This document shows positions 241-14,877 of a DNA stretch of 64,000 nt, one piece after another. The notes beneath the pieces are model-generated. The model saw only the letters and a program-made list of their open reading frames with translations, was not told where the DNA came from and searched no databases. Location of the stretch: positions 310,001-374,000 of the forward strand of contig NZ_JALIQS010000001.1 in NCBI RefSeq assembly GCF_024704725.1, read 5' to 3'. The position numbers and the translations under genes are program-made. The stretch's first letter is position 1; every line of letters starts with the position of its first letter. Source of the DNA: Shinella sp. CPCC 101442. Lineage in GTDB: Bacteria > Pseudomonadota > Alphaproteobacteria > Rhizobiales > Rhizobiaceae.

Positions 241-366
241 TGCGGATATCCGTCTTCCCGGCAGGCACCTATCCCTTTGGTGTATTCCTTCGTCTTGTCG
301 CCTGCGCCAAAGGACAGACACGGTCGCTCGATGATCGCGTCCGGGGTAGCAAGAGGAGGAACCTGC

Positions 367-2034
367 ATGCCCGTAACCGCCGATCTGATTGTCACAAATG
401 CGCACATCCTGACGATGGATGACGCCAATCCGCGCGCGGAAGCCATCGCGCTCGCTGGCGGGCGGATCCTCGCCGTCGGCAGCACCGGCGATGTTCTCGC
501 GCTGAAGGGCGAGGAGACGCAGATTATCGATGCGGGCGGCACGTCCGTACTGCCGGGCTTCATCGAAAGCCATATCCACATGTTCGGCGGCGCCGAGGAG
601 CTGCCGCATTTGCAGGTCGCGGAGATCGAGGGCTTCGAGGCGCTGAAGGCGAGCCTTTCGGCCCACGCCGCAGCCCACCCGGACGATGCCCTGCTGAAGG
701 CGCATGGTGCCGGCTACACGATCATCTCCGAAACCGAGACGCTGACACGCCATCATATCGACCGCATCGTCGCCGACCGTCCCGTGGTCATCGTCGCCGC
801 CGACCACCACACCTGCTGGGCCAATACCAGGGCGCTGGAACTGGCCGGCATCCTGCATGGCAAGGTGGTCAATCCCGGCAACGAGGTGGTCATGGGGCCG
901 GATGGCCTTGCGACGGGCGAATTGCGCGAGGGCGAGGCCATGTCGCCCGTCCTGCACCTTGCCGGCCCGAACCGCACGCATCTCGGCATCGAGACCGGCG
1001 GCGAGCCCGATCCGGCACCGACGGCGGCGGAATGGGAGGCCGACAAGGCGATCATGCGCGCCGGCCTTGCGCACGCCGCCAGACACGGCATCACCTCGTT
1101 CCATAATATGGATGGCAATCTCTACCAACTCCAGCTCCTGTCGGCGCTGGAGGAGGACGGCACCATCACCGTGCGCGGCCAGGTCCCCTTCCACTTCAAG
1201 AAGCCGATGACGTTCGCCGACCTCGAAAAGGCAAGCGAGATGGACAGGCGTTACCGCGGAGAATGGATCTCCTCGGGCATGGTCAAGGTCTTCATGGACG
1301 GCGTGATGGAATCCGGCACCGCCTTCCTCGTGGAACCCTATGCCGACCGGCCCGACTGGCACGGCGAGCCCTATTTCAGCAATGAGGAATTTGCCGAACT
1401 CGCCACCGAGATCGACCGGCGCGGCCTGCAGATCGCCGTGCACGCCATCGGCGACGGCGCCGTGCGCCGCGTGCTGAACGGTTACGAGGCGGCGCAGAAG
1501 GCCAATGGCGTGCGCGACAGCCGCCACCGCGTCGAGCATGTCGAACTGATCACCGAAGAGGACATGCCGCGTTTCGCCGAACTCGGCGTCGTCGCCTCCA
1601 TGCAGCCGCCCCATCCGCCGGGCGGCATGTGCTTTCCGCTCGAGCCGACCCTCTCGCGCATCGGTGAAAAGCGCCGCTACCTCGCCTATGCCTGGCGGCG
1701 CATCAAGGAGACGGGCGCCGCACTCGCTTTCTCTTCCGACTGGCCGGTCTCGCCGATCGATCCCATCGCCGGCATCCACGCCGCGGTGACGCGGAAGCTC
1801 TGGCAGGAGGGCGATCCCGACCATTCCGTCAGCCTGCACGACGCCATCGCCGCCTATACGATCGGCAGCGCCTATGCCGGATTTGCCGAAGACCGCAAGG
1901 GCATGCTCAAACCGGGCTACTTCGCCGACCTCGTCATCCTCGACAACGACATCGAGGCCATCGATCCGGAACGCATCCACGAGATCCGTCCGAAGACGAC
2001 GATCTGCGGCGGCCGGGTCACCTACGAGGCCTGA
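367..2034 (+). CDS. YtcJ-like metal-dependent amidohydrolase
   Basis: A 555-residue protein of the amidohydrolase_3 (YtcJ-like) family. It opens with the typical N-terminal beta-sandwich ([14 protein letters not shown]), then shows the metal motif HxH in [12 protein letters not shown] near residue 75. Further metal-site segments are [20 protein letters not shown] and [12 protein letters not shown], followed by a C-terminal return to the sandwich ([13 protein letters not shown]). No signal peptide is seen, so it is cytoplasmic. The start at 367 has an excellent ribosome site (AGAGGAGGA at 352-360); an upstream in-frame ATG at 277 lacks one. Family members hydrolyse amide or imide bonds of varied substrates. 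Its position 119 bases ahead of a polyamine-type importer suggests the substrate is brought in by that system, but this is inference. Confidence 0.85.
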
Positions 2035-2153
2035 GGTCTCATTCTTTCAACGGGAAGACATATCGGCACGCAGCGCACGCTGCGGGCACGATGCGCTGCA
2101 CCCATTCGACAATCATCGCCACCGCAAGGGGCAAAACGGGAGGACGATCGATA

Positions 2154-3254
2154 GTGACGGATCGAATCCACAAAAGTGCCATTGAAGTCCGTGACGTCAG
2201 CAAGGTCTTCGGCGCGGGCGACAGCGCGTTCAAGGCCCTGGACCATGTAAGCGTCGATATCAGGGAAAACGAGTTCTTCACCCTGCTCGGCCCCTCCGGA
2301 TGCGGCAAGACCACGCTCCTGCGCATGATCGCCGGCTTCACCTATCCGACGGACGGCGAGATCAGGCTCTACGGCCAAAACATTGCGGCGCTGCCGCCGT
2401 TCAAGCGACCGGTCAACACGGTGTTCCAGAACTACGCGCTCTTCCCGCATATGACGGTGGGCGAAAACATCGCTTTCGGCCTTGAAATGCTCGACCGCCC
2501 CAAGGCCGAGATTTCCGCCCGCGTCGAGGAGATGCTGGCGCTCGTCAAGATGGGACACCTGAAGGACCGCAAGACGGCGCAGATTTCCGGCGGCCAGCAG
2601 CAGCGCGTGGCGCTTGCCCGTGCGCTTGCCCCGCAGCCGAAGGTGCTGCTGCTCGACGAGCCGTTGTCGGCGCTGGATTACAAGCTGCGCAAGGACATGC
2701 AGATCGAGCTGAAGCGGCTGCAGACGGAGACCGGCATCACCTTCATCTTCGTCACGCATGACCAGGAGGAGGCGCTGACCATGTCGGACCGCATCGCGGT
2801 CATGTCGGCAGGCAAGATCCTCCAGATCGGCGGCCCGCGCGATATCTACGACCGACCCGCCGAGCGCTTCGTCGCCGAATTCATCGGCGAGACGAACTTC
2901 CTGAAGGCCGATGTCGCCACGGTCGCAGACGGTAAGGCGGATGTCGTGCTGCCCGGCGGCACGCGTGTTTGCGCCCGTCTGGCCGAAGGTTTTGTCCCCC
3001 ATGGCAAGGTCACGGTCGTCACGCGGCCGGAACATGCCGCCATCGTCGCCAACCCGGACGGCGCCCATCTGCGCGGCAAGCTGTCGAGCGTCGTCTATGT
3101 GGGCACGGACACGCATTTCCGCGTCGCGCTGGAAAGCGGCGAGAGTTTCTGCGTGCGCCGCCAGAACAGTCTCGAACAGGGCGCGGCCTTCGCAGAAGGC
3201 GATATGGTCGGCGTCGTGCTGGAGACGGGCGCGGCCCAGGTGCTGAAGGATTGA
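2154..3254 (+). CDS. potA: Spermidine/putrescine-type ABC transporter ATP-binding protein
   Basis: A 366-residue ATPase of the PotA/MOI class. The nucleotide-binding domain has Walker [11 protein letters not shown]-loop [19 protein letters not shown], signature ISGGQQQR, Walker [13 protein letters not shown] and the H-loop [15 protein letters not shown]-terminal TOBE domain follows ([11 protein letters not shown] and [12 protein letters not shown]). I chose the GTG at 2154 because GGGAGGA lies 9 bases upstream and the protein then begins close to the conserved [12 protein letters not shown]; an ATG at 2091 would add 21 unconserved residues. It is followed after 5 bases by the first permease, so it heads a four-gene operon. 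The exact polyamine substrate is not visible from the ATPase. Confidence 0.9.
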
Positions 3255-3259
3255 CACCT

Positions 3260-4195
3260 ATGAGCACCCTCACCAGCACCGCAAACGAAGCCGCGCGCCG
3301 CGTCGAGGCGCAGGATATCCGCAACCGCTGGCTCCTCTCCGCGCCGGCGCTCCTCATCATCGCACTTGCGGCCATCGGGCCACTCGCCATCGTCTTCGTC
3401 TATTCCTTCCTGATGCCCGGCAGCTACGGCGACGTCGTCTGGACGTTTTCGCCGGACGCATGGATCGCCGTACTCCTCGAAAAGGATATCTTCGACGGCA
3501 CCTGGTCGATCGCCGATGCGCATCTGTCGATCTTCTGGCGCTCCGTCTGGCTGTCGCTGCTGACCACCGTCACGACGCTCCTGCTCGGCTTCCCGACCGC
3601 CTATTTCATCGCGACACGGCCCGAGCGCACACGCGAGATCTGGCTGTTCCTCATCACCATCCCCTTCTGGACGAACCTGCTCATCCGCACCTTCGCGATC
3701 CAGGAACTCATCCGCAACGAGGGCATGATCAACACGCTGCTCATGAAGGCCGGCCTGATCTCGGCGCCGATCCAGATGATGTACACCGACTTCGCCATCC
3801 TCACCGGCATGACCTATGTCTTCTTCCCGTTGATGGTGCTGCCGCTCTATGCGAGCCTGGAAAAGGTCGATTTCCGCCTCGTCGAGGCCGGCTATGACCT
3901 CTATGCCAGCCGCTGGCGCGTGCTGAAGCGCATCATCCTGCCGCTGGTCAAGCCCGGCGTCATCGCCGGTTCCATCCTCGTCTTCATCCCCTCACTCGGC
4001 TCCTACGTGACGCCACGCATGCTGGGCGGCGGCAGCAAGATGATGCTCGGCAACCTCATCGAACTGCAGTTCGGCCAGGGCCGCAACTGGCCGCTCGGCG
4101 CCTCGCTCTCCATGGCGCTGCTCGCCATCGTCATGGTGGCGCTCATGCTTCAGGTCCGCTTCGCCGGACGTCAGGGAGGCAATGCTCATGGCTGA
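3260..4195 (+). CDS. potB: Polyamine-type ABC transporter permease (PotB family)
   Basis: A 311-residue inner-membrane permease with six predicted hydrophobic segments, the first at about residues 28-50 (LLIIALAAIGPLAIVFVYSF). The cytoplasmic EAA loop that contacts the ATPase reads VEAGYDLYASRWRVLKRIILPL. The sequence resembles PotB/PotH permeases for spermidine or putrescine. The ATG at 3260 lies 5 bases after the ATPase stop. The end overlaps the next permease gene by 8 bases, which indicates translational coupling. Confidence 0.88.
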   Translation: MSTLTSTANEAARRVEAQDIRNRWLLSAPALLIIALAAIGPLAIVFVYSFLMPGSYGDVVWTFSPDAWIAVLLEKDIFDGTWSIADAHLSIFWRSVWLSLLTTVTTLLLGFPTAYFIATRPERTREIWLFLITIPFWTNLLIRTFAIQELIRNEGMINTLLMKAGLISAPIQMMYTDFAILTGMTYVFFPLMVLPLYASLEKVDFRLVEAGYDLYASRWRVLKRIILPLVKPGVIAGSILVFIPSLGSYVTPRMLGGGSKMMLGNLIELQFGQGRNWPLGASLSMALLAIVMVALMLQVRFAGRQGGNAHG

Positions 4196-4997
4196 TCCGA
4201 CTGAAACCTTCGACGTCCGCCGACAGGCGGGCTTTCCCACCGTCGCGGTGGTCTGCTTCTTCCTGCTCTACCTGCCGATTGCAGCCCTCGTCGTCTTCTC
4301 GTTCAACGACGGCACCTCGATCGCCACCTGGGAAGGCCTGTCGCTGCGCTGGTTTGCCGAGGCGTGGAACAATGACAAGGTGGTGGAAGCCTCGATCCGC
4401 TCGGTGCAGATCGCAGCCTGCGCCGCCCTCATCGCGACCGTGGTCGCCACCATGGCGGCGCTTGCCACCACGCGCACACGGAACTATCGCGGCCTCGACG
4501 CGAAATACGCCTTCATCAACATGCCGTTGATGGTGCCGGAAATCGTCGTCGCCGTGGCGCTCCTGATCTTCTTCTCGCGCATCAAGATGGCGACCGGCTA
4601 TTCCGGCCTCGGCTATCTCGTCGCCGCCCACACGGCCTTCTGCATCCCCTTCGCCTACCTGCCGATCCGGGCACGGCTGGAGAGCATGGACCTCTCGCTG
4701 GAAACCGCCGCCGCCGATCTTTACGCGACGCCCCTTAGGGCCTTCCGCAGGGTGACGCTGCCGTTGCTGTGGCCCGGCATTCTCGCCGGCCTGATGCTCG
4801 CCTTCGTCATTTCGCTCGACGACGTCGTCATCACCGAGTTCGTCAAATCGGGCGGGCAGGACACACTGCCGACCTACATGCTCGGCCAGTTGCGCCGCGT
4901 CGTCACGCCCGAAATGAACGCGATCTCGACGGTGTTCCTGCTCCTGTCCATCGCCATCGTCACCGCCTTCTTCTTCATCAGCCGCAAAAAGGATTGA
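4188..4997 (+). CDS. potC: Polyamine-type ABC transporter permease (PotC family)
   Basis: A 269-residue PotC/PotI-type permease with an N-terminal membrane segment (VAVVCFFLLYLPIAALVVFSF) and the EAA loop ETAAADLYATPLRAFRRVTLPL. It partners the preceding PotB-like subunit to form the heterodimeric channel. Two ATGs are close together at 4182 and 4188; AGGGAGG at 4173-4179 fits 4188 much better (8-base spacing). The gene overlaps its upstream neighbour and is followed after 3 bases by the binding-protein gene. Confidence 0.88.
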   Translation: MADPTETFDVRRQAGFPTVAVVCFFLLYLPIAALVVFSFNDGTSIATWEGLSLRWFAEAWNNDKVVEASIRSVQIAACAALIATVVATMAALATTRTRNYRGLDAKYAFINMPLMVPEIVVAVALLIFFSRIKMATGYSGLGYLVAAHTAFCIPFAYLPIRARLESMDLSLETAAADLYATPLRAFRRVTLPLLWPGILAGLMLAFVISLDDVVITEFVKSGGQDTLPTYMLGQLRRVVTPEMNAISTVFLLLSIAIVTAFFFISRKKD

Positions 4998-5000
4998 TCC

Positions 5001-6032
5001 ATGACACGAACCTCAAGGCTCGCCGCACTCGGCCTCATGCTTCTCTGCTCCACGACCGCCCATGCGGCCGGCGAGCTCAACATCTTCAACTGGGGCAACT
5101 ACACAAATCCCGACCTCATCAAGAAGTTCGAGAAGGAATTCGACGTCAAAGTCACCGTGACGGACTACGATTCGAACGACACGGCGCTGGCGAAGATCCG
5201 CCAGGGCGGCCACGGCTTCGACATGGTGGTGCCTTCCGCCAACGTGCTGAAGGTCTGGATCGACGAAGGCCTGCTGCTCGAGGCGCGGCCCGACCAGATG
5301 GCGAATTTCAAGAATGTCGACGAGCGTTGGTTGAATGTCGACTTCGATCCGGGCCGCCACTACACCGTTCCGTGGCAATGGGGCACGACGGGCGTTGCCG
5401 TCAACAAGACCGTCTACAAGGGCGACCCGAACACGTCGGCCCTCTTCCTCGATCCGCCGCCGGAACTGGAAGGCAAGATCAATGTCGTGCCTGAAATGTC
5501 CGACATCATGTTCCTCGCCATCCGCTATGTCGGCGGCGAGCCCTGCACGAACGACCTTGCGGTGCTGAAGAAAGCGCGTGAAGTGCTGCTTGCCGCCAAG
5601 CCGAAGTGGCTTTCGCTCGACTACGGCACGATCGACTCGCTTACAAAGGGCGATTTTGCCCTCGGCGTCGAGTGGAACGGTGCCGCCTTCCGCACCCGCC
5701 TGCAAAACCCCGACATCGTCTACGGCTATCCGAAGGAAGGGTATCCGATCTGGATGGACAATCTCGGCATTATCAAGGACGCCAGGAATGTCGAGAACGC
5801 AAAGCTCTTCATGAACTTCGTCATGGACCCGGAAAACGCCGCCCTGATCTCCGCCTTCGCCCGCTACGGCAACGGCATCAAGGGTTCTGAACAGTTCATG
5901 CCCGAGGACATGAAGACCGCACCGGAGGTCAACATCCCGGCGGAGTTCCAGGCAGCCGGGTCCTTCAACCTCGCCTGCTCGCCCGACGTCCAGCAGATCT
6001 ATACGAAGATCTGGACCGACCTGATGAAGTAA
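5001..6032 (+). CDS. potD: Periplasmic polyamine-binding protein (PotD/PotF family)
   Basis: A 343-residue secreted binding protein. The first 22 residues form a signal peptide (basic MTRTSR, hydrophobic [10 protein letters not shown], cleavage after AHA). The mature part begins with [20 protein letters not shown], the typical start of PotD/PotF proteins, in which the Trp-Tyr region lines the polyamine site. It is the last gene of the operon ATPase-permease-permease-binding protein, whereas most binding-protein genes in this window are promoter-proximal. Putrescine, spermidine or an acylated amine are all possible ligands. Confidence 0.88.
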
Positions 6033-6156: not shown

Positions 6157-6603
6157 GTGCGTATCATAGCAAAGAGCATCGTCGGCGCAGCAGCGGTCCT
6201 TTTCGCGCTCGCCCTTCCCGCCGGTGCGGCAGATTTTGAAGTGCATATGCTCAACAAGGGCGCCGCCGGCGCCATGGTGTTCGAGCCCGCCTTCGTGAAG
6301 GTCGCCCTCGGCGACACCGTCACCTTCATCCCGACCGACAAGGGGCACAATGTCGAGACGATCAAGGACATGATCCCCGAAGGTGCGGAAGCCTTCAAGA
6401 GCAAGATGAACGAAACCTACAAGGTCACCTTCGACAAGGCCGGCGCCTATGGCGTCAAGTGCACCCCGCATACCGGCATGGGCATGGTGGGTGTGGTGAT
6501 CGTCGGCGATGCGCCGGCCAATCTCGATGTGGTCAAGACCGGCAAGCTGCCGAAGAAGGCGCGCGAGCGCATGGATGCCGCCATCGCGGCAGCCGGCCTC
6601 TAA
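6157..6603 (+). CDS. paz: Pseudoazurin (blue copper electron carrier)
   Basis: A 148-residue periplasmic type I copper protein. A signal peptide (residues 1-24, ending PAGA-A) precedes a single cupredoxin domain starting [11 protein letters not shown]. The four copper ligands are visible: His in DKGHNVE, then Cys, His and Met in [12 protein letters not shown]. Pseudoazurins donate electrons to copper nitrite reductase and related respiratory enzymes in denitrifying alphaproteobacteria. The start is GTG at 6157 with AAGGAGA at 6144-6150. The FNR-like box upstream supports oxygen- or NO-responsive expression. The stop overlaps the stop of the convergent thioesterase gene. Confidence 0.95.
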
Positions 6604-7016
6604 GGGGCTTCCACGAGATTGCCGGCCGCAGCGACGATTGCGGCCGGCAGCGGCAGGGATTGCCGCGCGGCGAGATCGAAATAGACCGAGACAGCCAGCA
6701 GTTCGGCGCATGGCGCATCGTCCGCCTTGTTCGTCAGCCGGTGCTGCGTCGTGAGCGAAGTACGCCCCACCTTCACGACGGAAGAATGGATTTCGAACAG
6801 GCTGCCGACCGGCAATTCCCTGCGGAAATCGATCTCGTAGCGGCGATCCGCCCAGCCTTCCTTCCGCGTCGTGATCCAGTCTGCCGAATAGCCGGCCGCC
6901 GCCATCAGGTGCCAAAGCGCCTGATCGAACGCGGCTATGTAGTACTGCACGTTCATATGGCCCATTGCATCGCATTGCGCGGGATAGACAACACCCTGAT
7001 AGGTCAGAGACGGCAC
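6600..7016 (-). CDS. Acyl-CoA thioesterase, 4HBT hot-dog family
   Basis: A 138-residue hot-dog-fold thioesterase. The N-terminal [21 protein letters not shown] holds the D-x-x-G-H-M-N pattern of the 4-hydroxybenzoyl-CoA thioesterase family, with Asp as the likely catalytic residue. The GTG at 7016 has AGGAGG at 7023-7028, a 6-base spacing; upstream in-frame ATGs lack this. It is divergent from the LysR gene at 7109 and so is a likely target of it. A thioesterase next to a beta-keto-acid cleavage enzyme also occurs in carnitine catabolism (CdhB with CdhC), where it releases CoA from the cleavage product. A similar role, such as hydrolysis of 4-acetamidobutyryl-CoA, is inferred here. Confidence 0.82.
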
Positions 7017-7108
7017 GGCAAACCTCCTTTGTCCGGCTTGGGACTTTGATGCGGGATCGCGCCATGCAATAGGTCTGCCCCACAGCATAGCTTTGGAGAA
7101 TGATAGGC

Positions 7109-8062
7109 ATGGCGCGGCAAAGACGGCGTTTCGTCTGGGAAATCGACTGGAATCTGCTGCGCACCTTCATGGTGATCGTGCAGGAACGTGGATTGACGGC
7201 AGCGGGAGAAAAGCTCTCGCTCAAGCAGCCGACCGTCAGCAACACGCTGAAGCGGCTGGAAACCCATATGGGTTGCCGGCTCATCGAGCGGAACGCCTCG
7301 CTTTTCGCGGTGACACCCGCAGGTCAACGGCTCTACAGCGAATGCGTCGCCCTTTTCGACATCGTCTCCGGGCTGCCGCAGCATATGGAAGAGCAACCCG
7401 GCGACCTGACGGGCCATATCGAGATCGCGCTTGCCAGCCATGTCGTCTGCCCGCTCCTCGACGAGGCGCTCGCCGCGTTCCACAGCGCCTTTCCGCAGGT
7501 CACGCTCTCGCTCTCCGTCGCCTCCAGCAACGATGTCGTGGCGGCGGTGCTGAACCGCGACGCCTGTTTCGGCATCTGCCTGATGCAGGAGCGTCATCCG
7601 AGGCTCGAATATGACGTGCTTTTCCGCGAGAGCTTCGGCTATTTCTGCGGCGCCCGGCATCCGCTGTTCGGCAAGAAGGACCTGCCGATCTCGACGCTGC
7701 GCCAGGAACCCTATGTCTCCTTCAAGACGGATCAGATGTCCGGCGCGCTCTGGCCGGTCGCCCTCCTGCGCCAGCAGGAGGGGTTCGAGGGGCAGACGGT
7801 CGGCACCTCCTCGCATCTCGAAGAGGTCAAGCGCCTGATCATCGCCGGCTTCGGCTTCGGGCCGCTGCCGATCCATGTCGTGGAGGAAGACGTGCGCGCC
7901 GGCCGCCTCTGGCGTCTGCCCCCCTATGAGAATGCGCCCGTCATCGATGTGCATGTCGTCTATGACGGCTCGGCCCGCCGCAGCCGTGCGGAAAGCCTGC
8001 TGCTGGCGGAGCTGCACCAGGCGATTGCGACGATCCCCTTCGAGCAACGGACCTATCCCTAG
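7109..8062 (+). CDS. LysR-type transcriptional regulator
   Basis: A 317-residue LysR-family regulator. The N-terminal winged helix-turn-helix is clear (DWNLLRTFMVIVQERGLTAA and KQPTVSNTLKRLETHMG), followed by a periplasmic-binding-like effector domain. GGAGA at 7095-7099 fits the ATG at 7109 rather than the one at 7100. It is divergent from the thioesterase (93-base gap) and its end overlaps by 4 bases the end of the deacetylase gene, the last gene of the eight-gene operon. That placement makes it the obvious candidate regulator of both units. The effector is unknown. Confidence 0.88.
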   Translation: MARQRRRFVWEIDWNLLRTFMVIVQERGLTAAGEKLSLKQPTVSNTLKRLETHMGCRLIERNASLFAVTPAGQRLYSECVALFDIVSGLPQHMEEQPGDLTGHIEIALASHVVCPLLDEALAAFHSAFPQVTLSLSVASSNDVVAAVLNRDACFGICLMQERHPRLEYDVLFRESFGYFCGARHPLFGKKDLPISTLRQEPYVSFKTDQMSGALWPVALLRQQEGFEGQTVGTSSHLEEVKRLIIAGFGFGPLPIHVVEEDVRAGRLWRLPPYENAPVIDVHVVYDGSARRSRAESLLLAELHQAIATIPFEQRTYP

Positions 8063-9084
8063 GCTTTTGCACCAAAACCGGTAAGGAAGGCGGTCAGGTT
8101 GTCGCCGAGCTCGTCGCAGAGATAACCGCCCTCCTGCACGATGACCGTCGGCAGCCGAAGCCTGGCGATAGCCTCGGCGATGCGCGCGAAACCGGGCGTG
8201 GAGACCGAAAGACCGCCGAACGGGTCCTTCTCGAAAGCATCCAGGCCAAGCGCCACGACGAGCGCATCCGGCGAGAACGCCTCGACACGGCGGATGGCGG
8301 CGGCGAGCGCTTCGAGATAGACGGCATCGCCGGATTTGCGGGCGAGCGGCAGGTTGAGATTGTAACCGAGGCCAAGCCCCTCTCCGCGTTCATCCGCGTG
8401 TCCCCAGAAGAACGGATAGAAACGCACCGGATCGGCGTGGATCGACACCGTCAGCACGTCGGCACGCTCATAGAACATGCCCTGCGTGCCGTTGCCGTGG
8501 TGCAGGTCGACATCGAGGATGGCGACACGCTTTGCCTGCCGCAGCAGATGCTGCGCGGCGATCCCGGAATTGTTGAAAAAGCAGAAGCCGCCGGCAACAT
8601 CCCTGAAAGCATGATGCCCCGGTGGGCGGCAGAGGGCGTAGGACCATTCATCTCCCGCCATGACAGCCTCGGCGGCCGAGACGGCAGTGAAGGCGCTCCA
8701 GCAGGCACTCTCCCAGGTGTGCTCGGAGATCGGGCAGGACGTATCGGCCATATGATAGCCGGCCTGTCCCACGGCCGAGGCCGGATAGCTGCCGGTGCGG
8801 GCAATCGGATGAATGTTCGGGATGACTTCCGCCGAAGCGCCCTCGATACGCTGCCAGCGTTCATAGATGCGGCGCAGGAAATCGAGATATTCCGGGCTGT
8901 GCACGGCGGAGACCGGTCCGAGACCGTGATCTCCAGGCCGCAGGATTTCCGTGCCTGCGGCCCGAGCGCCGGCAAGCAGACGCTCGACACGTTCCGGCTG
9001 CTCCGGGTTCGGCTGCGGCGCACCGCTCGACAGGAAGAATGTCGGGTCGTGACGCTTCTGTTCTTCGGCAAAAAAGGTCTTCAT
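8059..9084 (-). CDS. Histone-deacetylase-family amine deacetylase (acetylpolyamine amidohydrolase-like)
   Basis: A 341-residue zinc deacetylase of the arginase/HDAC fold, the same length as acetylpolyamine amidohydrolase of Mycoplana. Active-site motifs are complete: PGHH at 155-158, the zinc site DVDLHHGNGTQ (Asp193 and His195), the third ligand Asp282 in LGLDAFEKDP, and the catalytic Tyr321 in EGGYLCDELG. No signal peptide is present. The start overlaps the stop of the GNAT gene (ATGA), so an acetylase and a deacetylase are translationally coupled. The family removes acetyl groups from amines such as acetylputrescine, acetylcadaverine or 4-acetamidobutyrate-like compounds. In this operon, deacetylation of 4-acetamidobutyrate to 4-aminobutyrate is a plausible role, but this is inferred. 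Confidence 0.88.
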   Translation of the reverse strand: MKTFFAEEQKRHDPTFFLSSGAPQPNPEQPERVERLLAGARAAGTEILRPGDHGLGPVSAVHSPEYLDFLRRIYERWQRIEGASAEVIPNIHPIARTGSYPASAVGQAGYHMADTSCPISEHTWESACWSAFTAVSAAEAVMAGDEWSYALCRPPGHHAFRDVAGGFCFFNNSGIAAQHLLRQAKRVAILDVDLHHGNGTQGMFYERADVLTVSIHADPVRFYPFFWGHADERGEGLGLGYNLNLPLARKSGDAVYLEALAAAIRRVEAFSPDALVVALGLDAFEKDPFGGLSVSTPGFARIAEAIARLRLPTVIVQEGGYLCDELGDNLTAFLTGFGAKA

Positions 9085-9575
9085 GCTGTGTCCTCACCGG
9101 CGAAGGCGTCGAAATCCGCGCCCTTGATCATATGGATCAGCTCATCGCGGGAGTGGCGGATGCCGATCCGGTCGTAAAAGGCCTGCGCCCTCGGGTTCTC
9201 GACGTCGACCGAGAGGCGCATGTAACGCGCGCCCTTTTCCCGGCCGCGACGGGCCGCCGCATGCAGAAGCCGCTCTCCGATGCGCCGGCCGCGAAAAGCA
9301 TCCGCGACGAAAAGATCCTGCACATAGATGCCGGGCGTGCCCATCCAGGTCGAAAAGCTCGCAAACGTCAGGCAGAGACCGGCGAAGGCATTGTCCGCTT
9401 CCGCAAGCAGCACCTCGAAAGCCGCTACCGCACCAAACCCATGGTGCCTGATATCCTCGACCGTCGAGACGAATTTCGGCCCGGCCTTCATGCCGGCGGC
9501 CATGTCCCTCAGCCCCGCATGAATGGTTTCGGCGTCATCGACGAGCGCGAGCCGAATTCGAATGTTGTCCTGCAT
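9081..9575 (-). CDS. GNAT-family N-acetyltransferase
   Basis: A 164-residue GNAT enzyme. Motif A (VQDLFVADAFRGRRIGERLL) carries the pyrophosphate-binding R-G-x-x-I-G loop for acetyl-CoA, and motif B follows (YMRLSVDVENPRAQAFYDRI). It lies between the cleavage enzyme (9-base gap) and the deacetylase (4-base overlap) in the eight-gene operon. Diamine and small-molecule amine acetyltransferases share this layout. In context it may acetylate the terminal amine of the imported substrate to protect it before transamination. Substrate cannot be read from sequence. Confidence 0.85.
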   Translation of the reverse strand: MQDNIRIRLALVDDAETIHAGLRDMAAGMKAGPKFVSTVEDIRHHGFGAVAAFEVLLAEADNAFAGLCLTFASFSTWMGTPGIYVQDLFVADAFRGRRIGERLLHAAARRGREKGARYMRLSVDVENPRAQAFYDRIGIRHSRDELIHMIKGADFDAFAGEDTA

Positions 9576-9584
9576 GGTCTCTCC

Positions 9585-10514
9585 TCAGAACGCGACGCGG
9601 TCGCCGCCCTTGAGACCGAGCATAGCGCGCGCCTCGTCAGGCGTCGCGACTTCAAGCGACAGGCCTTCGAGGATCGCGCGGATTCGGCGAACCTGGACGG
9701 CGTTGGAGGTGGCAAGTTCGCGGCCATCGAACAGGCTGTCCTCCAGCCCGACGCGCACGCTGCCGCCCATGGTCGCTGCCATGGTGATCATCGGCGTCTG
9801 CTTGCGGCCTGCCGCCAGAACGGAGAAGCGGTAGTCGTCGCCGAACAGCTTGTCGGCGATGCGTTTCATATGCATCAGGTTCTCGGGGTCGGCCCCTATG
9901 CCGCCGAGAATGCCGAGGACGAACTGGATGAAGGGCGTGCCTGGTATCAGGCCGCGATCGCGAAAATGCGCGAGCGTGTAGAGATGCCCGACATCATAGC
10001 ATTCGAATTCGAAGCGCGTGCCGCAGCCCTCGCCGAGGCGTTTGAGGATCGTCTCGATGTCACCGAAGGTGTTGCGGAAGATCGTGCCGCGCGTCGCCTC
10101 CAGAAGTTCAGGCTCCCAGGCGTGCTGCCATTCGCGCGGGCGGTCCAGCATGGGGTAGAGGCCGAAATTCATCGAGCCCATGTTGAGCGAGCACATTTCC
10201 GGCTCGGCGGCGAGCGCTGCCGCCGTCCTGTCCTCCAGCGTCATCAAGGAGGAGCCACCCGTGGTGATGTTGATAACCGCATCGCTCGCCTGCTTGATGA
10301 CCGGCAGGAAGCGCATGAAGACCTTGGGATCGGCGGTAGGACGGCCGTTTTCCGGGTCGCGGGCATGCAGATGCAGGATCGAGGCCCCTGCCTCTGCCGC
10401 CTCGATGGCCTGGGCGGCGATGTCTTCCGGCTTGTAGGGAAGATGCGGCGACATGGAGGGCGTGTGCACCGAGCCGGTGACGGCGCAGGTGATGATGACC
10501 TTGTTGGATTTCAT
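9585..10514 (-). CDS. Beta-keto acid cleavage enzyme (BKACE, DUF849)
   Basis: A 309-residue protein of the BKACE family, whose prototype is 3-keto-5-aminohexanoate cleavage enzyme of lysine fermentation. The start MKSNKVIITCAVTGSVHTPS is typical. The zinc-binding HxH is seen in ILHLHARDPENGRPTADP (His48 and His50), and INITTGGSS is also conserved. The reaction is beta-keto acid plus acetyl-CoA giving acetoacetate plus a new acyl-CoA. The ATG at 10514 was chosen over a longer frame because it begins at the conserved N-terminus and has a GGGGC-type ribosome site. The aminotransferase immediately upstream (10-base gap) could make the beta-keto substrate from a beta-amino acid. Confidence 0.92.
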   Translation of the reverse strand: MKSNKVIITCAVTGSVHTPSMSPHLPYKPEDIAAQAIEAAEAGASILHLHARDPENGRPTADPKVFMRFLPVIKQASDAVINITTGGSSLMTLEDRTAAALAAEPEMCSLNMGSMNFGLYPMLDRPREWQHAWEPELLEATRGTIFRNTFGDIETILKRLGEGCGTRFEFECYDVGHLYTLAHFRDRGLIPGTPFIQFVLGILGGIGADPENLMHMKRIADKLFGDDYRFSVLAAGRKQTPMITMAATMGGSVRVGLEDSLFDGRELATSNAVQVRRIRAILEGLSLEVATPDEARAMLGLKGGDRVAF

Positions 10515-10524
10515 GGCCTGCCCC

Positions 10525-11895
10525 TTATTTTCGCACCGGCAAAGACAGCTCGCCGGCAAGCTGCGCCAGCGTCGCGTCGAGGATCGTGACAATCTCGCCG
10601 ACCTGTTCTTCCGTGGTGATCATCGGCGGGCAGACGAGGAAATGGTCGCCCTCCACGCCGCCGCGCGTGCGGCGCGAATAGATGATCAGGCCGCGTTCAT
10701 AGGCGATATCGACGACCCGCTGGTGCGCCTCCAGCGCCTTGGGCAACGGCGCCATGGTCTCGCGGTCGGAGACGAATTCGGCGGCGAGCAGCAGGCCTTT
10801 GCCGCGCACGTCACCAATAAAGGGATAACGTTCCGCCAATCCCTCAAGCTCGGCCTTCATCAGATCGCCGATGCGGGTGGCATTGCCGAGCAGATCCTGC
10901 CGCTCGATCTCGTCGAGCACGGCAAGGCCGGCGGCGCAGGCGAGCGGATTGCCGGCATAGGTGTAGCCATGGGCGAAGCCGCCGCGATCAAGCACCGGCT
11001 TGACCAGTTTCGAATGGGCGATCATCGCGCCGAGCGGGCAATAGCCGGCACCGAGCCCCTTGGAGAGCGCGATGATGTCAGGCCGGCAGTTCCAGTGATC
11101 GCCACCAAGATAGCGGCCGGTGCGGCCCGCGCCGCTCATCACTTCGTCATGGATCAGCAGGATGCCGTACTTGTCGCAGATCTCGCGAATGCGCGGATAG
11201 TAGCTGTCGGGCGCCACGAGTGCGCCGGTGGAGGCCCCGCCAATCGGCTCCATGATGAAGGCGAGCACGCTTTCGGCGCCCTCCTCCAGGATTTTTTCCT
11301 CCAGCATGTCGGCATAACGAAGCCCGCGCTCTTCCATCGAAAAGTTGTCGCGGTCGAGATAGGCGGTCGGGGCCTTGATGTGCGGCATGTCGCGCAGCAT
11401 CGGCAGGAAGGGCTTTTTCAGCTCGTCGTAGCCGGTGACGGCGAGCGCTCCGAGCGTCGAACCGTGATAGGAGGGGAAGCGCGAGATGACCTTCCAGCGT
11501 TCCGGCTGGTCGGTGGCGAGCGCCCATTGGCGGGCGAGCTTCAGGCAGGATTCCACCGCTTCAGAACCGCCGGAGACGAAGAACACCCGGTCAAGCCCCT
11601 CGGGCATATGGCCGGCAAGCCGGCGCGCCAGGTCTTCCGCCGGCTGGTTCTCGAAATGCAGGCGATAGGCGAAAGTCGCCTTGTCCATCTGCCGCTTCAT
11701 GGCGTCGAGCACATTGCGGTTGGAATGGCCGATATTGACGACCATCGCGCCGCTGGAGCCGTCGATGACCTTCCGGCCGTGCTCGTCCCAGATATAGATG
11801 CCCTCGGCGCGGTCGGCGAGCGGCCGACGCATGCGGGACTGGTAGAAGAGGTGCGATGCCGGGCGTTCACCGGGCGCAGTCGATTGCTGGCTCAT
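10525..11895 (-). CDS. Class III pyridoxal-phosphate aminotransferase
   Basis: A 456-residue fold-type I aminotransferase of the omega/beta-amino acid class. It has the phosphate-binding SGGSEAVE at 108-115, Asp250 in LLIHDEVMSGAGRTG that pairs with the pyridine nitrogen, and the Schiff-base Lys279 in ALSKGLGAGYCP. The family transaminates amino groups that are not alpha to the carboxylate, including beta-alanine, beta-lysine derivatives and diamines. It follows the ABC ATPase after 45 bases and precedes the cleavage enzyme, which needs a beta-keto acid. A beta-amino acid is therefore the natural substrate to propose. EC 2.6.1.65 (N6-acetyl-beta-lysine transaminase) is one specific possibility. 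Confidence 0.9.
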   Translation of the reverse strand: MSQQSTAPGERPASHLFYQSRMRRPLADRAEGIYIWDEHGRKVIDGSSGAMVVNIGHSNRNVLDAMKRQMDKATFAYRLHFENQPAEDLARRLAGHMPEGLDRVFFVSGGSEAVESCLKLARQWALATDQPERWKVISRFPSYHGSTLGALAVTGYDELKKPFLPMLRDMPHIKAPTAYLDRDNFSMEERGLRYADMLEEKILEEGAESVLAFIMEPIGGASTGALVAPDSYYPRIREICDKYGILLIHDEVMSGAGRTGRYLGGDHWNCRPDIIALSKGLGAGYCPLGAMIAHSKLVKPVLDRGGFAHGYTYAGNPLACAAGLAVLDEIERQDLLGNATRIGDLMKAELEGLAERYPFIGDVRGKGLLLAAEFVSDRETMAPLPKALEAHQRVVDIAYERGLIIYSRRTRGGVEGDHFLVCPPMITTEEQVGEIVTILDATLAQLAGELSLPVRK

Positions 11896-11940
11896 GATCG
11901 ATCCATTGAAAAAGATAAAAATGCAGCGGCCGGAGACAGT

Positions 11941-12705
11941 CTAGCCGTTGAGGAACTTCTTGAGGAAGCTGCGGGTGCGTTCCTGCACCGGATTTCGGAA
12001 GAGATCGTCGGGCTTGCCCTCCTCGACGACCGCGCCATCCGCCATGAAGATCACCCGGTCGGCGACTTCGGCGGCAAAGCGCATCTCGTGGGTGACGATC
12101 ACCATGGTCATGTGCTCGGCCGCGAGTTGCTTCATGACGAGGTTCACCTCGTCCACCAGCTCCGGATCGAGCGCCGAGGTCGCCTCGTCGAACAGCATCA
12201 CCTTCGGCTGCATGGCGAGCGCTCGCGCAATGGCGACACGCTGCTTCTGCCCACCGGAAAGGCGCGCCGGGAACGCGTCGATCTTGTCGGCGAGCCCTAC
12301 CTTGTCGAGCATCTTCAGGGCGAGCGCCCGCGCGTCCACCTTCGCCATGCCCTTCAGCTTCATCGGGGCGATGGCGATGTTTTCCGCCACGCTCAGATGC
12401 GGGAAGAGGTTAAAATGCTGGAACACCATGCCCATCTGCTGGCGCACGCTGTTGATGTGCTTTTCGAAGGCGCGACGGGGGAGCGTCTGGTTGACCTTGA
12501 CGCCATCCAGCCACACCTCGCCGCCGTCGAGCGTTTCCAGATGGTTGATCGAGCGCAGCAGCGTGCTCTTGCCCGAACCGCTCGGACCGATCACGGCGAC
12601 GATCTGGCCGCGCGCCACGCTGAAATCGATGCCCTTCAGCACCTCCAGCGGCCCGAAGAATTTGCGCGCGCCGCGCACCTCGATCATCGGACGGACATCG
12701 GTCAT
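11941..12705 (-). CDS. Polar amino acid ABC transporter ATP-binding protein (GlnQ/HisP type)
   Basis: A 254-residue ATPase with Walker [11 protein letters not shown]-loop [17 protein letters not shown], signature LSGGQKQR, Walker [13 protein letters not shown] and the H-loop [13 protein letters not shown]. The overall pattern is that of polar amino acid uptake systems such as GlnQ, HisP and OccP. It overlaps the upstream permease gene by 4 bases. It serves two permeases, as in histidine/opine and lysine/arginine/ornithine systems, so a basic or omega-amino acid ligand is plausible. Confidence 0.93.
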
Positions 12706-13361
12706 CGCGAAAGCTCCACTTTCCGTTCGATCCTGCCGAGGACCGCTTCGAGAATGAGATTGAGGACGTAATAGAGGGCGGCGGCCGTCAGGTAGAATTC
12801 GAAGGGCCGGTAGGTCTCGCTGATGACGAGCTGGGCGCTGTGCACCAGTTCGGCGATGCCGATCATCGAGACGATCGAGCTTTCCTTCAGGAGCGCGATC
12901 ATCATGTTGCCGACGGCCGGCACCGTGTTGCGCAGCGCCTGCGGCACGACGATGTAGAGCCGCGTCTGCCAGGCGCCGAAGCCGAGCGAGCGCGCCGCTT
13001 CCGTCTGCCCTTTATCCAGCGAGACAATGCCGGCGCGAAAAATATCGGCGTTGTAGACGGCGAAATGCAGGCTGAGGCCGATGATGCCGGACCAGAGGGC
13101 CGGGATATCGATGCCGATCTGCACGAGGCCGAAATAGATCAGGAACAGCTGCAAGAGCAGCGGCGTGCCCATGAAGAGCCACATGAAGAGGCGCACGGGG
13201 TAGCGCACCACGGGCGACGCATAGAGCACGATGAGGGCAAAGCCCATGCCGGCGATGATGCTGAAGAGGGCGGAGACGACGGAGATGACGACCGTCCACC
13301 ACAGGCCCTTGCCGATCAGCGGCAGATATTCCGGAACGATGCTGAAATCGAGACCCTGCAT
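12702..13361 (-). CDS. Amino acid ABC transporter permease
   Basis: A 219-residue HisM/HisQ-type permease. Hydrophobic segments include [20 protein letters not shown] and [18 protein letters not shown]. The EAA loop reads [25 protein letters not shown]. It sits 3 bases after the other permease and overlaps the ATPase gene by 4 bases. Together the two make a heterodimeric channel for polar amino acids. Confidence 0.9.
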
Positions 13362-13364
13362 GGC

Positions 13365-14015
13365 TTACGCCTCCTCGGCATAGGCACGGTCGAGCCTGTC
13401 GATGACAAGCGTCAGGCCGTAGACCATGATCATGTAGAGCACCGCCGTCACCGCGAAGATCTCGAAGGGCTTGTAGGTGGAGCCGATGAAACGCTGCGCC
13501 GTATAGGTGAGCTCCACGACCGAGATGGTGGCGACGAGCGCCGTGCCCTTGACCAGCGCAACGGCATTGACGCCGAGCGGGCGGATCATCAATTTGGCGG
13601 CCTGCGGCAGCACGATCCAGCGCATGGACTGGCCCTCGCCGAAACCGAGCGAGCGCGCCGCCTCCATCTGGCCGCGATCCACCGACAGCACGCCGCCACG
13701 GATCGATTCCGCCATATAGGCCGCGATGTTGAGGCCGAGCGCGATGGCGCCCGCCGCGAAGGGCTCGAGCTGGATGCCGATCTGCGGGCCGCCGAAATAG
13801 AGCAGGAAGATCTGGAGAAGTGCCGGCGTGCCGCGAAAGACGCTGACATAGGCAGTGCCGATGAAGCGCAGCACCGCCAGATGCGAAAGCCGCAGGCCCG
13901 CGATCAGCGCCGCCACGGCAAGACCGAGGACCAGCGAAAGCAGCGAGAGCTGAACGGTCGTCCAGGCCGCCTGGACGAAGACAGGGATGATGCGGCCGAT
14001 GAGAGCGATGTCCAT
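13365..14015 (-). CDS. Amino acid ABC transporter permease
   Basis: A 216-residue permease paralogous to its neighbour, with segments such as VQLSLLSLVLGLAVAALIAG and an EAA loop [21 protein letters not shown]. It is the second gene of the eight-gene operon, 76 bases after the binding-protein gene. A strong hairpin lies in that gap and probably sets the ratio of binding protein to channel. Confidence 0.9.
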   Translation of the reverse strand: MDIALIGRIIPVFVQAAWTTVQLSLLSLVLGLAVAALIAGLRLSHLAVLRFIGTAYVSVFRGTPALLQIFLLYFGGPQIGIQLEPFAAGAIALGLNIAAYMAESIRGGVLSVDRGQMEAARSLGFGEGQSMRWIVLPQAAKLMIRPLGVNAVALVKGTALVATISVVELTYTAQRFIGSTYKPFEIFAVTAVLYMIMVYGLTLVIDRLDRAYAEEA

Positions 14016-14039
14016 TCCCGGATCCTCGGCAATCGGTCA

Positions 14040-14071
14040 GGCTGTCCGGCGCGATTTCCCGCCGGACAGCC
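14040..14071 (-). repeat. Intercistronic GC hairpin after the amino-acid binding-protein gene
   Basis: GGCTGTCCGGCG (14040-14051) pairs perfectly with CGCCGGACAGCC (14060-14071) around an 8-base loop. No T-run follows in the minus direction, so it is not a full terminator. Such hairpins after the binding-protein cistron usually protect the upstream message from 3' exonucleases or attenuate read-through. It is one of four similar cases in this window. Confidence 0.75.
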
Positions 14072-14091
14072 GTCTCAGGATGCGAAAACGA

Positions 14092-14877
14092 TCAGCGGAT
14101 GTCCGAGCCGACCCACTTCATGGCGATGGCCTCGTAGGTGCCGTCGGCCATCATGTCGTCGAGCGCCTTCTGCATGGCGGCCTTCAGCTCGGGATTGCCC
14201 TTGCGGATGGCGATGCCGATCTTGTCCTCGGTGCCTGCAAATTCCGGCACGTCGAGCTTGGTGAACTTCTCGCCGGTTTCCTTGATGGCGATCGAGACCG
14301 GAACGGCATCGACGATCATCGCCTGGATACGGCCGGCCTTCAGCTCGAGGAAGAGTTCCGGCAGGCCCTTGTAGGTGCGGATTTCCCAGCCGCCGCGCTC
14401 GCGGGCCCACTTCTCGTGGGTTTCGCCGAGCGTCACGCCGATCGTCTTGTCCTTGAGGTCGTCGATCGACTTGACCTCGGAACCCTCGACAACGAAGACA
14501 CCGCGGCCGGACTTGTAATAGGGACCGACGAAATCGACGGCCTTTTCACGCTCCGGCGTGATGGTCATGCTGCCGATGACCGAGTCGTATTTGCCGGCAA
14601 GCAGACCCGCGATAATACCGTCCCAGGCGGTGCTGAGGCCGGTGCCCTTCACGCCGAGACGCTTGGCGATCTCGTTGCCGATATCGACGTCGAAGCCGAC
14701 CGTCTGGTTGCTGTCATCGACGAAGCTGAAGGGCGGATAGGCGCCGCTGTTGGCGAACTTGAATTCGCCTGCCGCCTTGACGGTTTCCAGATCGTCCGCG
14801 CTCGCCGCGAAGGGCGTCGCGAGAACCGAGAAGGCAAGGCCGGCGGCCATGGCGCAGGATAGAATGCTTTTGAACAT
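14092..14877 (-). CDS. Periplasmic amino-acid-binding protein (SBP family 3)
   Basis: A 261-residue family 3 solute-binding protein. A signal peptide of about 24 residues (MFKSILSCAMAAGLAFSVLA, cleavage after ASA) is followed by DDLETVKAAGEFKFANSGAYPPFSFVD. The conserved VGFDVDIGNEIAKRLG and the internal SMTITPEREKAVDFVGPYYK segments are present. The ATG at 14877 begins at the signal peptide. It is the promoter-proximal gene of an operon running leftwards through two permeases, the ATPase, the aminotransferase, the cleavage enzyme, the acetyltransferase and the deacetylase. The ligand is probably a cationic or omega-amino acid that feeds those enzymes. Confidence 0.9.
   Translation of the reverse strand: MFKSILSCAMAAGLAFSVLATPFAASADDLETVKAAGEFKFANSGAYPPFSFVDDSNQTVGFDVDIGNEIAKRLGVKGTGLSTAWDGIIAGLLAGKYDSVIGSMTITPEREKAVDFVGPYYKSGRGVFVVEGSEVKSIDDLKDKTIGVTLGETHEKWARERGGWEIRTYKGLPELFLELKAGRIQAMIVDAVPVSIAIKETGEKFTKLDVPEFAGTEDKIGIAIRKGNPELKAAMQKALDDMMADGTYEAIAMKWVGSDIR

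Follow-up and report, generated by a model that had tools for sequence, protein, structure and literature searches.

The stretch analysed here, called the window throughout, comprises 64,000 nucleotides of Shinella sp. CPCC 101442 (assembly GCF_024704725.1, contig NZ_JALIQS010000001.1, positions 310,001-374,000 of the forward strand). With Pfam and NCBIfam models as the basis for family assignment, we found eight minus-strand genes between positions 14877 and 8059, coding for a substrate-binding protein, two permeases and an ATPase of an ABC importer, a class III aminotransferase, a BKACE, a GNAT acetyltransferase and an HDAC-fold deacetylase. Genes for a LysR-type regulator and a hot-dog thioesterase lie next to them. 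The ten genes, in window positions, are:

14092-14877, minus strand: periplasmic substrate-binding protein of the polar amino-acid type (SBP_bac_3); start at 14877 preferred over 14925
13365-14015, minus strand: ABC permease of the polar amino-acid family (BPD_transp_1); best NCBIfam matches cystine permease and EhuC, below cut-off
12702-13361, minus strand: ABC permease of the polar amino-acid family (BPD_transp_1); best NCBIfam matches cystine permease and EhuC, below cut-off
11941-12705, minus strand: ABC transporter ATPase (ABC_tran); best NCBIfam match EhuA, 333 bits (cut-off 345)
10525-11895, minus strand: class III aminotransferase (Aminotran_3, PF00202, 330 bits), a candidate beta-lysine or N6-acetyl-beta-lysine aminotransferase
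9585-10514, minus strand: BKACE (PF05853, 352 bits; NF053538, 511 bits, cut-off 430)
9081-9575, minus strand: GNAT acetyltransferase (Acetyltransf_1, PF00583, 51 bits), proposed to acetylate the terminal amine of beta-lysine
8059-9084, minus strand: HDAC-fold acetylpolyamine-type amidohydrolase (Hist_deacetyl, PF00850, 252 bits), proposed to deacetylate 4-acetamidobutanoate or its coenzyme A (CoA) ester
7100-8062, plus strand: LysR-type regulator (family match)
6600-7088, minus strand: hot-dog thioesterase (4HBT_2, PF13279), proposed to release CoA from 4-acetamidobutanoyl-CoA

Successive genes of the eight-gene set are spaced by 76, 3, -4, 45, 10, 9 and -4 bp, and these short gaps and overlaps suggest that the set forms a single operon. 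A preliminary description of this DNA had proposed one minus-strand operon of importer, aminotransferase, BKACE, GNAT and deacetylase, and both the coordinates and the families were confirmed by the open reading frames and Pfam matches. The start of the BKACE gene was set at 10514; a longer mechanical open reading frame, to 10592, would overlap the aminotransferase gene. The LysR gene is convergent with the deacetylase gene and overlaps it by 4 bp, and the thioesterase gene, being divergent from the LysR gene, adjoins the operon and lies outside it; the placement of these two genes next to the operon in the preliminary description was likewise correct. A promoter scan returned 2 sites against 2.0 expected, and a terminator scan 9 against 6.6.

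We propose, with a probability of roughly 0.6, that the operon catabolises imported beta-lysine and/or N6-acetyl-beta-lysine. The amino acid would enter the cell through the ABC importer, and the GNAT acetyltransferase would acetylate its terminal amine, if free, and so prevent cyclisation of later intermediates. The class III aminotransferase would convert N6-acetyl-beta-lysine to 6-acetamido-3-oxohexanoate, which would be cleaved with acetyl-CoA. CoA would then be freed by the adjoining thioesterase, by the deacetylase or by a CoA-transferase, and the HDAC-fold amidohydrolase would carry out the deacetylation that leads to 4-aminobutyrate. That a beta-amino acid whose second amine is protected is turned into a beta-keto acid, which is then split, seems to us very probable; as to the name of that amino acid, we lean towards beta-lysine or N6-acetyl-beta-lysine. 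We infer the position of the acetyl group, the CoA-removing enzyme and the mode of regulation; the operon is probably inducible.

An aerobic L-beta-lysine pathway of Pseudomonas (EC 2.6.1.65, EC 3.5.1.51) was reportedly worked out by enzymology in the Barker laboratory. The likeness extends to N6-acetylation, transamination, acetyl-CoA-dependent cleavage, thioester hydrolysis and deacetylation, and at the level of family the window holds together genes fit for acetyltransferase, transaminase, keto-acid cleavage, CoA release and deacetylation. The Pseudomonas pathway consists of measured enzymes, for which we know of no genes, whereas the window operon is known here from its genes. Among 398 genomes drawn from the phylum, the aminotransferase occurred at an E value of 1e-120 or better in 23, of which 22 belong to the window's class and one, at 47% identity, lies outside it, so that the Pseudomonas enzymes need not be orthologs. 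Two other systems share part of this logic. L-Carnitine degradation uses a BKACE and a betainyl-CoA thioesterase, and the window thioesterase has as its best NCBIfam match, a faint one, the C-terminal part of the carnitine 3-dehydrogenase model (27 bits, cut-off 592); the ten window genes, however, include no carnitine dehydrogenase, and have an aminotransferase, a GNAT and a deacetylase instead. In clostridial lysine fermentation (kamA, kamDE, kdd, kce), the BKACE/Kce step gives acetoacetate, as one account has it (PMC3149608), but there a dehydrogenase oxidises L-erythro-3,5-diaminohexanoate, in place of the aminotransferase and N-acetylation of the window. In our literature search, the titles and abstract starts of the matches listed included none linking genes to aerobic beta-lysine breakdown.

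Membership of the window protein in the BKACE family is indicated by its family match and by conserved catalytic residues. When aligned to BKACE15 (8rio, 8rip) it retains E171, together with R254 in the aligned VRVGLED stretch, the latter position being counted by eye. These two residues and H48 and H50, the histidines of HLHARD, which we take to be the metal-binding pair, each show at least 99% conservation across the 78 matched loci. In BKACE15, E171 is described as the base, and its replacement by leucine as abolishing activity (PMC11961710).

To assess how far the neighbourhood is conserved, we searched 385 genomes of the window's class, 29 of which, the window's own included, carried the aminotransferase at an E value of 1e-120 or better; sequence with wide flanks was obtained for the remaining 28. 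From the 575 relatives that a scan of named genomes gave, the best 80 were retained; Shinella were the closest named relatives by aminotransferase among the matches listed, at 96% identity. The phylum search was positive in 23 of the 398 genomes, and of the 22 other than the window's own, 16 were fetched and 14 of those counted (G425, G489, G597, G672 and G705 were left out, and G042 was already in the set). An actinobacterial search was positive in one of 296 genomes, the Leucobacter used as its centre. Of 113 loci, we excluded 16 whose flanks were too short and two duplicates (L104 of L035, L186 of L124), which left 95 distinct loci with aminotransferases 61-96% identical to that of the window. 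Neighbourhood counts refer to matches within 7 kb of the aminotransferase gene, at thresholds of at least 45% identity for the HDAC-type deacetylase and at least 40% for LysR.

The co-occurrence of the families in other genomes, which the preliminary description had put forward as a check, was borne out. A BKACE was found in 67 of the 95 loci and a CoA-transferase in 12, both in none and neither in 16, so that 79 carry one of the two. An HDAC-type deacetylase was present in 71 loci and an M20 deacylase in 17 (both in 2, neither in 9, and one or the other in 86), and a GNAT of either reference type in 68. LysR matches lay near the aminotransferase gene in 51 loci and thioesterase matches in 16, and importers were of the polar amino-acid type in 27 and of the Pot type in 14. 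Wherever a BKACE was found, it was on the same strand as the aminotransferase gene and within 1.5 kb of it (69/69, in the set with duplicates). Within the class, a BKACE stood beside 15 of the 19 relatives at 64-77% identity. After dereplication at 85% identity to 47 loci, BKACE was counted in 29, CoA-transferase in 9, both in 0 and neither in 9 (Fisher p 3.6e-5, kinship ignored), and HDAC-type deacetylase in 30, M20 in 14, both in 2 and neither in 5 (p 8e-6, kinship likewise ignored). At least three switches between BKACE and CoA-transferase were required on the aminotransferase tree for the clade rows, and at least five on a smaller tree set that counts the Bacillus rows.

The CoA-transferase A/B pair and the M20 deacylase are absent among the ten window genes; in the 12 and 17 of the 95 loci that carry them, they replace the window's enzymes part for part. 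Of the 12 CoA-transferase loci with enough flank, 7 have a thiolase match within 7 kb, compared with 1 of 83 other loci, at 38% identity. Genes for the aminotransferase, CoA-transferase A, CoA-transferase B and M20 followed each other in this order on one strand in 8 of 13 CoA-transferase loci, and a GNAT was inserted in two more. The conserved linkage and the replacement of two steps, cleavage and deacetylation, support the logic of the proposed pathway. They bear also on another explanation, namely an acetylpolyamine or polyamine operon in which the deacetylase would act on N-acetylpolyamines, the aminotransferase on a terminal amine and the BKACE on an unrelated keto acid. The solved chains nearest to the window deacetylase are indeed acetylpolyamine amidohydrolases (3men, 9gkz, 6phr, 3q9b), and the Pot-type importers of 14 loci would fit; however, such an operon leaves unexplained the presence of the BKACE, its exclusion by CoA-transferase with thiolase, and the association of BKACE with the aminotransferase family, and we regard it as improbable.

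The linkage of this aminotransferase family to BKACE could be followed within single genomes. Among class III aminotransferases of 18 cluster-bearing genomes, 20 of the 33 that score above 390 bits with the YodT-family model (PRK06917) have a BKACE within 2 kb, as against 1 of the 105 that score 206-331 bits, and that one adjoins a linked pair. Some of these 33 are paralogs that fall outside the window clade. Of the 13 above 390 bits that lack such a BKACE, eight carry the CoA-transferase version, and therefore 28 of 33 adjoin one or other cleavage route. Thus, the pairing of aminotransferase and BKACE exceeds chance. The window aminotransferase is itself the best YodT-family match in its own genome (421 vs 303 bits). 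Nine loci with paralogous aminotransferases had a BKACE beside seven of them and a DMFA2_C hydrolase beside two, and the stretch shown at these nine loci held no match to the GNAT, HDAC-type or M20 references. That the GNAT and deacetylase genes track the window-type aminotransferase, and not its paralogs, suggests a second amine in its substrate.

Paralogous class III aminotransferases are paired with distant BKACEs in related genomes (L204-L208, L210 and L211), which suggests a wider set of beta-amino acid pathways. In 16 records the aminotransferase (at least 60% identity) is plasmid-borne, as for example in NZ_CP084754.1, and one of these, at 98%, is labelled Roseateles sp.

The CoA-transferase version of the relatives shares its gene order with a Bacillus operon whose last two genes are ablB and ablA. 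In three Bacillaceae loci (L198, L199 and L200), the order was aminotransferase, CoA-transferase A, CoA-transferase B, M20 'peptidase' and ablB; ablA was annotated after ablB in L199 and L200, and L198 has at that place an unannotated KamA-family tblastn match in two pieces. We take these genes to be those named yodS, yodR, yodQ and yodP (ablB) in Bacillus, with ablA an alternative name of kamA. AblB is a beta-lysine acetyltransferase and AblA a lysine 2,3-aminomutase, and overexpression of yodP-kamA in B. subtilis reportedly yields N-acetyl-beta-lysine. The Bacillaceae aminotransferases are 38-39% identical to that of the window, and identities between Bacillaceae and relatives are 44-46% for CoA-transferase A, 44-49% for B and 33-36% for M20. 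The B. velezensis proteins scored 767 bits with PRK06917, 742 bits with PRK06915 and 303 bits with the AblB model. In all 12 entries (11 distinct genomes) the M20 protein of the cluster is the best match of its genome to NF005373/PRK06915, the YodQ-type model, scoring 291-320 bits, whereas the next-best protein reaches no more than 201. The yodT-yodS-yodR-yodQ-yodP-kamA operon thus resembles the relatives' CoA-transferase version in order, and the window operon in having a related aminotransferase and the roles of deacylase and acetyltransferase. The window differs from it in having a BKACE in place of the CoA-transferase, an HDAC-fold deacetylase in place of the M20 enzyme, a different GNAT and an importer, and in having no aminomutase. 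A survey of B. subtilis pyridoxal-phosphate enzymes gives KamA and YodT as SigE-dependent, the physiological function of KamA as undetermined, and YodT as uncharacterised, with a role in biotin metabolism guessed (PMC6522883).

A number of observations weigh against the proposed beta-lysine route. The corrected tree places Bacillus YodT outside a group formed by the window clade and its relatives at 48-54% identity; a branch with a support of 84 separates seven paralogs of the window genome from YodT and the rest, and a tree test did not reject YodT and the window clade as one group (p 0.12). The window aminotransferase falls below the YodT cut-off (PRK06917, 422 vs 535 bits) and below that of PRK07483 (461 vs 485 bits), and exceeds the cut-off of no model shown. 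In several of the 18 genomes, moreover, the score of the cluster copy with the YodT model is equalled or exceeded by that of another aminotransferase. From the placement of YodT and the equal-scoring paralogs it follows that these aminotransferases are relatives in one wider family, and not proven orthologs.

Conservation is also incomplete. There was no GNAT match in 27 of the 95 loci, and neither BKACE nor CoA-transferase in 16. Each of 12 genomes checked from these 16 has an unlinked BKACE (best 60-69% identity), which is weak comfort, their function being uncertain, because a control genome with a linked BKACE at 80% has an unlinked one as well, at 59%. Nine relatives at 48-54% identity (L050-L058) had no BKACE, GNAT or deacetylase match nearby; in this group, a CoA-transferase pair is present about 6 kb off in L056, and a neighbouring DMFA2_C gene in L058.

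The name of the closest BKACE family also weighs against the route. The window BKACE exceeds the cut-off of NF053538, a model named 3,5-dioxohexanoate:acetyl-CoA acetone transferase (511 vs 430 bits), and could accordingly have as substrate 3,5-dioxohexanoate, or a neutral diketo acid like it, which the aminotransferase would supply from a different amine. The BKACE family is, however, described as promiscuous, with activities that cross group borders (PMC4922564), so that the name of the model need not give the physiological substrate; this explanation also leaves the GNAT and the deacetylase without a role, and we consider it very improbable.

The search for a source of beta-lysine weighs against the route as well. 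AblA and AblB references had no match within 7 kb in any of 97 loci (duplicates included), and the window GNAT had no match to the AblB family (TIGR03827). A KamA-family search of 23 cluster-bearing genomes found none in 14, matches over the cut-off in 8 and a weak match in 1. The single KamA-family match of the window genome scored 560 bits with TIGR03822 (AblA_like_2) and 287 bits with the AblA model (cut-off 525); it lies beside EpmA, which points to EF-P modification. We therefore rejected lysine 2,3-aminomutase as a member of the cluster for the loci counted. Last, a DMFA2_C hydrolase occurs in 53 of the 95 loci and is not explained by the pathway.

These data leave room for the same chemistry on another diamine-type beta-amino acid, or on its amide or conjugate, such as beta-ornithine, beta-arginine, 3,5-diaminohexanoate or a beta-lysine-containing natural product. 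Importers that vary between the polar amino-acid type (27 loci) and the Pot type (14 loci) would fit such a substrate, as would the lack of a linked aminomutase and the recurrent hydrolases (DMFA2_C in 53 loci, creatininase in 6, M24 in 3 and PTE in 1), which look as if they opened a bound or cyclic form first. However, the only version of the module seen with an adjoining source of the amino acid is the ablA/ablB-linked one of Bacillus, and we judge another substrate unlikely. Of the beta-lysine pathway put forward in the preliminary description, the logic of the chemistry was strengthened, by the conserved linkage, the two replaced steps and the Bacillus four-gene order, the last of which that description did not have, and the substrate stays a proposal, in view of the absence of linked ablA/ablB, the genomes lacking a KamA-family match, a GNAT with no AblB match and the BKACE family name.

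Several features of the neighbourhoods are recorded here in their own right. DMFA2_C (N,N-dimethylformamidase-like) genes recur at L031-L033, L037, L058, many of L059-L138, L203 and L204, and also beside YodT-like and other paralogs. The six creatininase-family genes lie between the binding protein and permease genes (L110, at 7013-7804, L119, L129, L131, L136 and L040). A DAO-type oxidase dependent on flavin adenine dinucleotide (at least 45% identity) occurs in 12 of the 95 loci and RidA in 7, many of them with the Pot-type importer (for example L042:13259-14362 and L049:4341-4688). At L001:287-2538, EpmA stands beside a TIGR03822 AblA-like protein that is below the EpmB cut-off (246 vs 369 bits); possibly, the two form a variant EF-P beta-lysylation pair. 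In the window itself, an Amidohydro_3 gene and then a Pot-type ABC transporter lie beside the cluster (277-6032, plus strand), and a pseudoazurin gene (6157-6603, plus strand; 177 bits, cut-off 110) lies between this transporter and the thioesterase gene. That this transporter (2091-6032) is the importer of the relatives was not supported, its binding protein being 23% identical to their PotD, its ATPase 46% and its permeases 35%.

Taken further, the beta-lysine reading would join the two gene orders. We would give even odds that the window operon and the Bacillus yodT-S-R-Q-ablB-ablA operon are two builds of one aerobic route for beta-lysine or N6-acetyl-beta-lysine, in which cleavage (BKACE vs CoA-transferase and thiolase) and deacetylation (HDAC-fold vs M20) were swapped for unrelated enzymes, cleavage several times. 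The aminotransferase would then be the long-orphan EC 2.6.1.65; rhizobia and roseobacters would scavenge beta-lysine or the osmolyte N6-acetyl-beta-lysine set free by other organisms, and Bacillus mother cells would burn lysine by the same route. N-acetyl-beta-lysine is described as an osmolyte of many methanogens (PMC1224877). If the proposal is true, soil and marine bacteria would have a route by which to consume beta-lysine and N-acetyl-beta-lysine, and a sporulation operon of B. subtilis would gain a function. It would also provide genes for an aerobic lysine-derived pathway that, to our knowledge, is known from enzymology alone.

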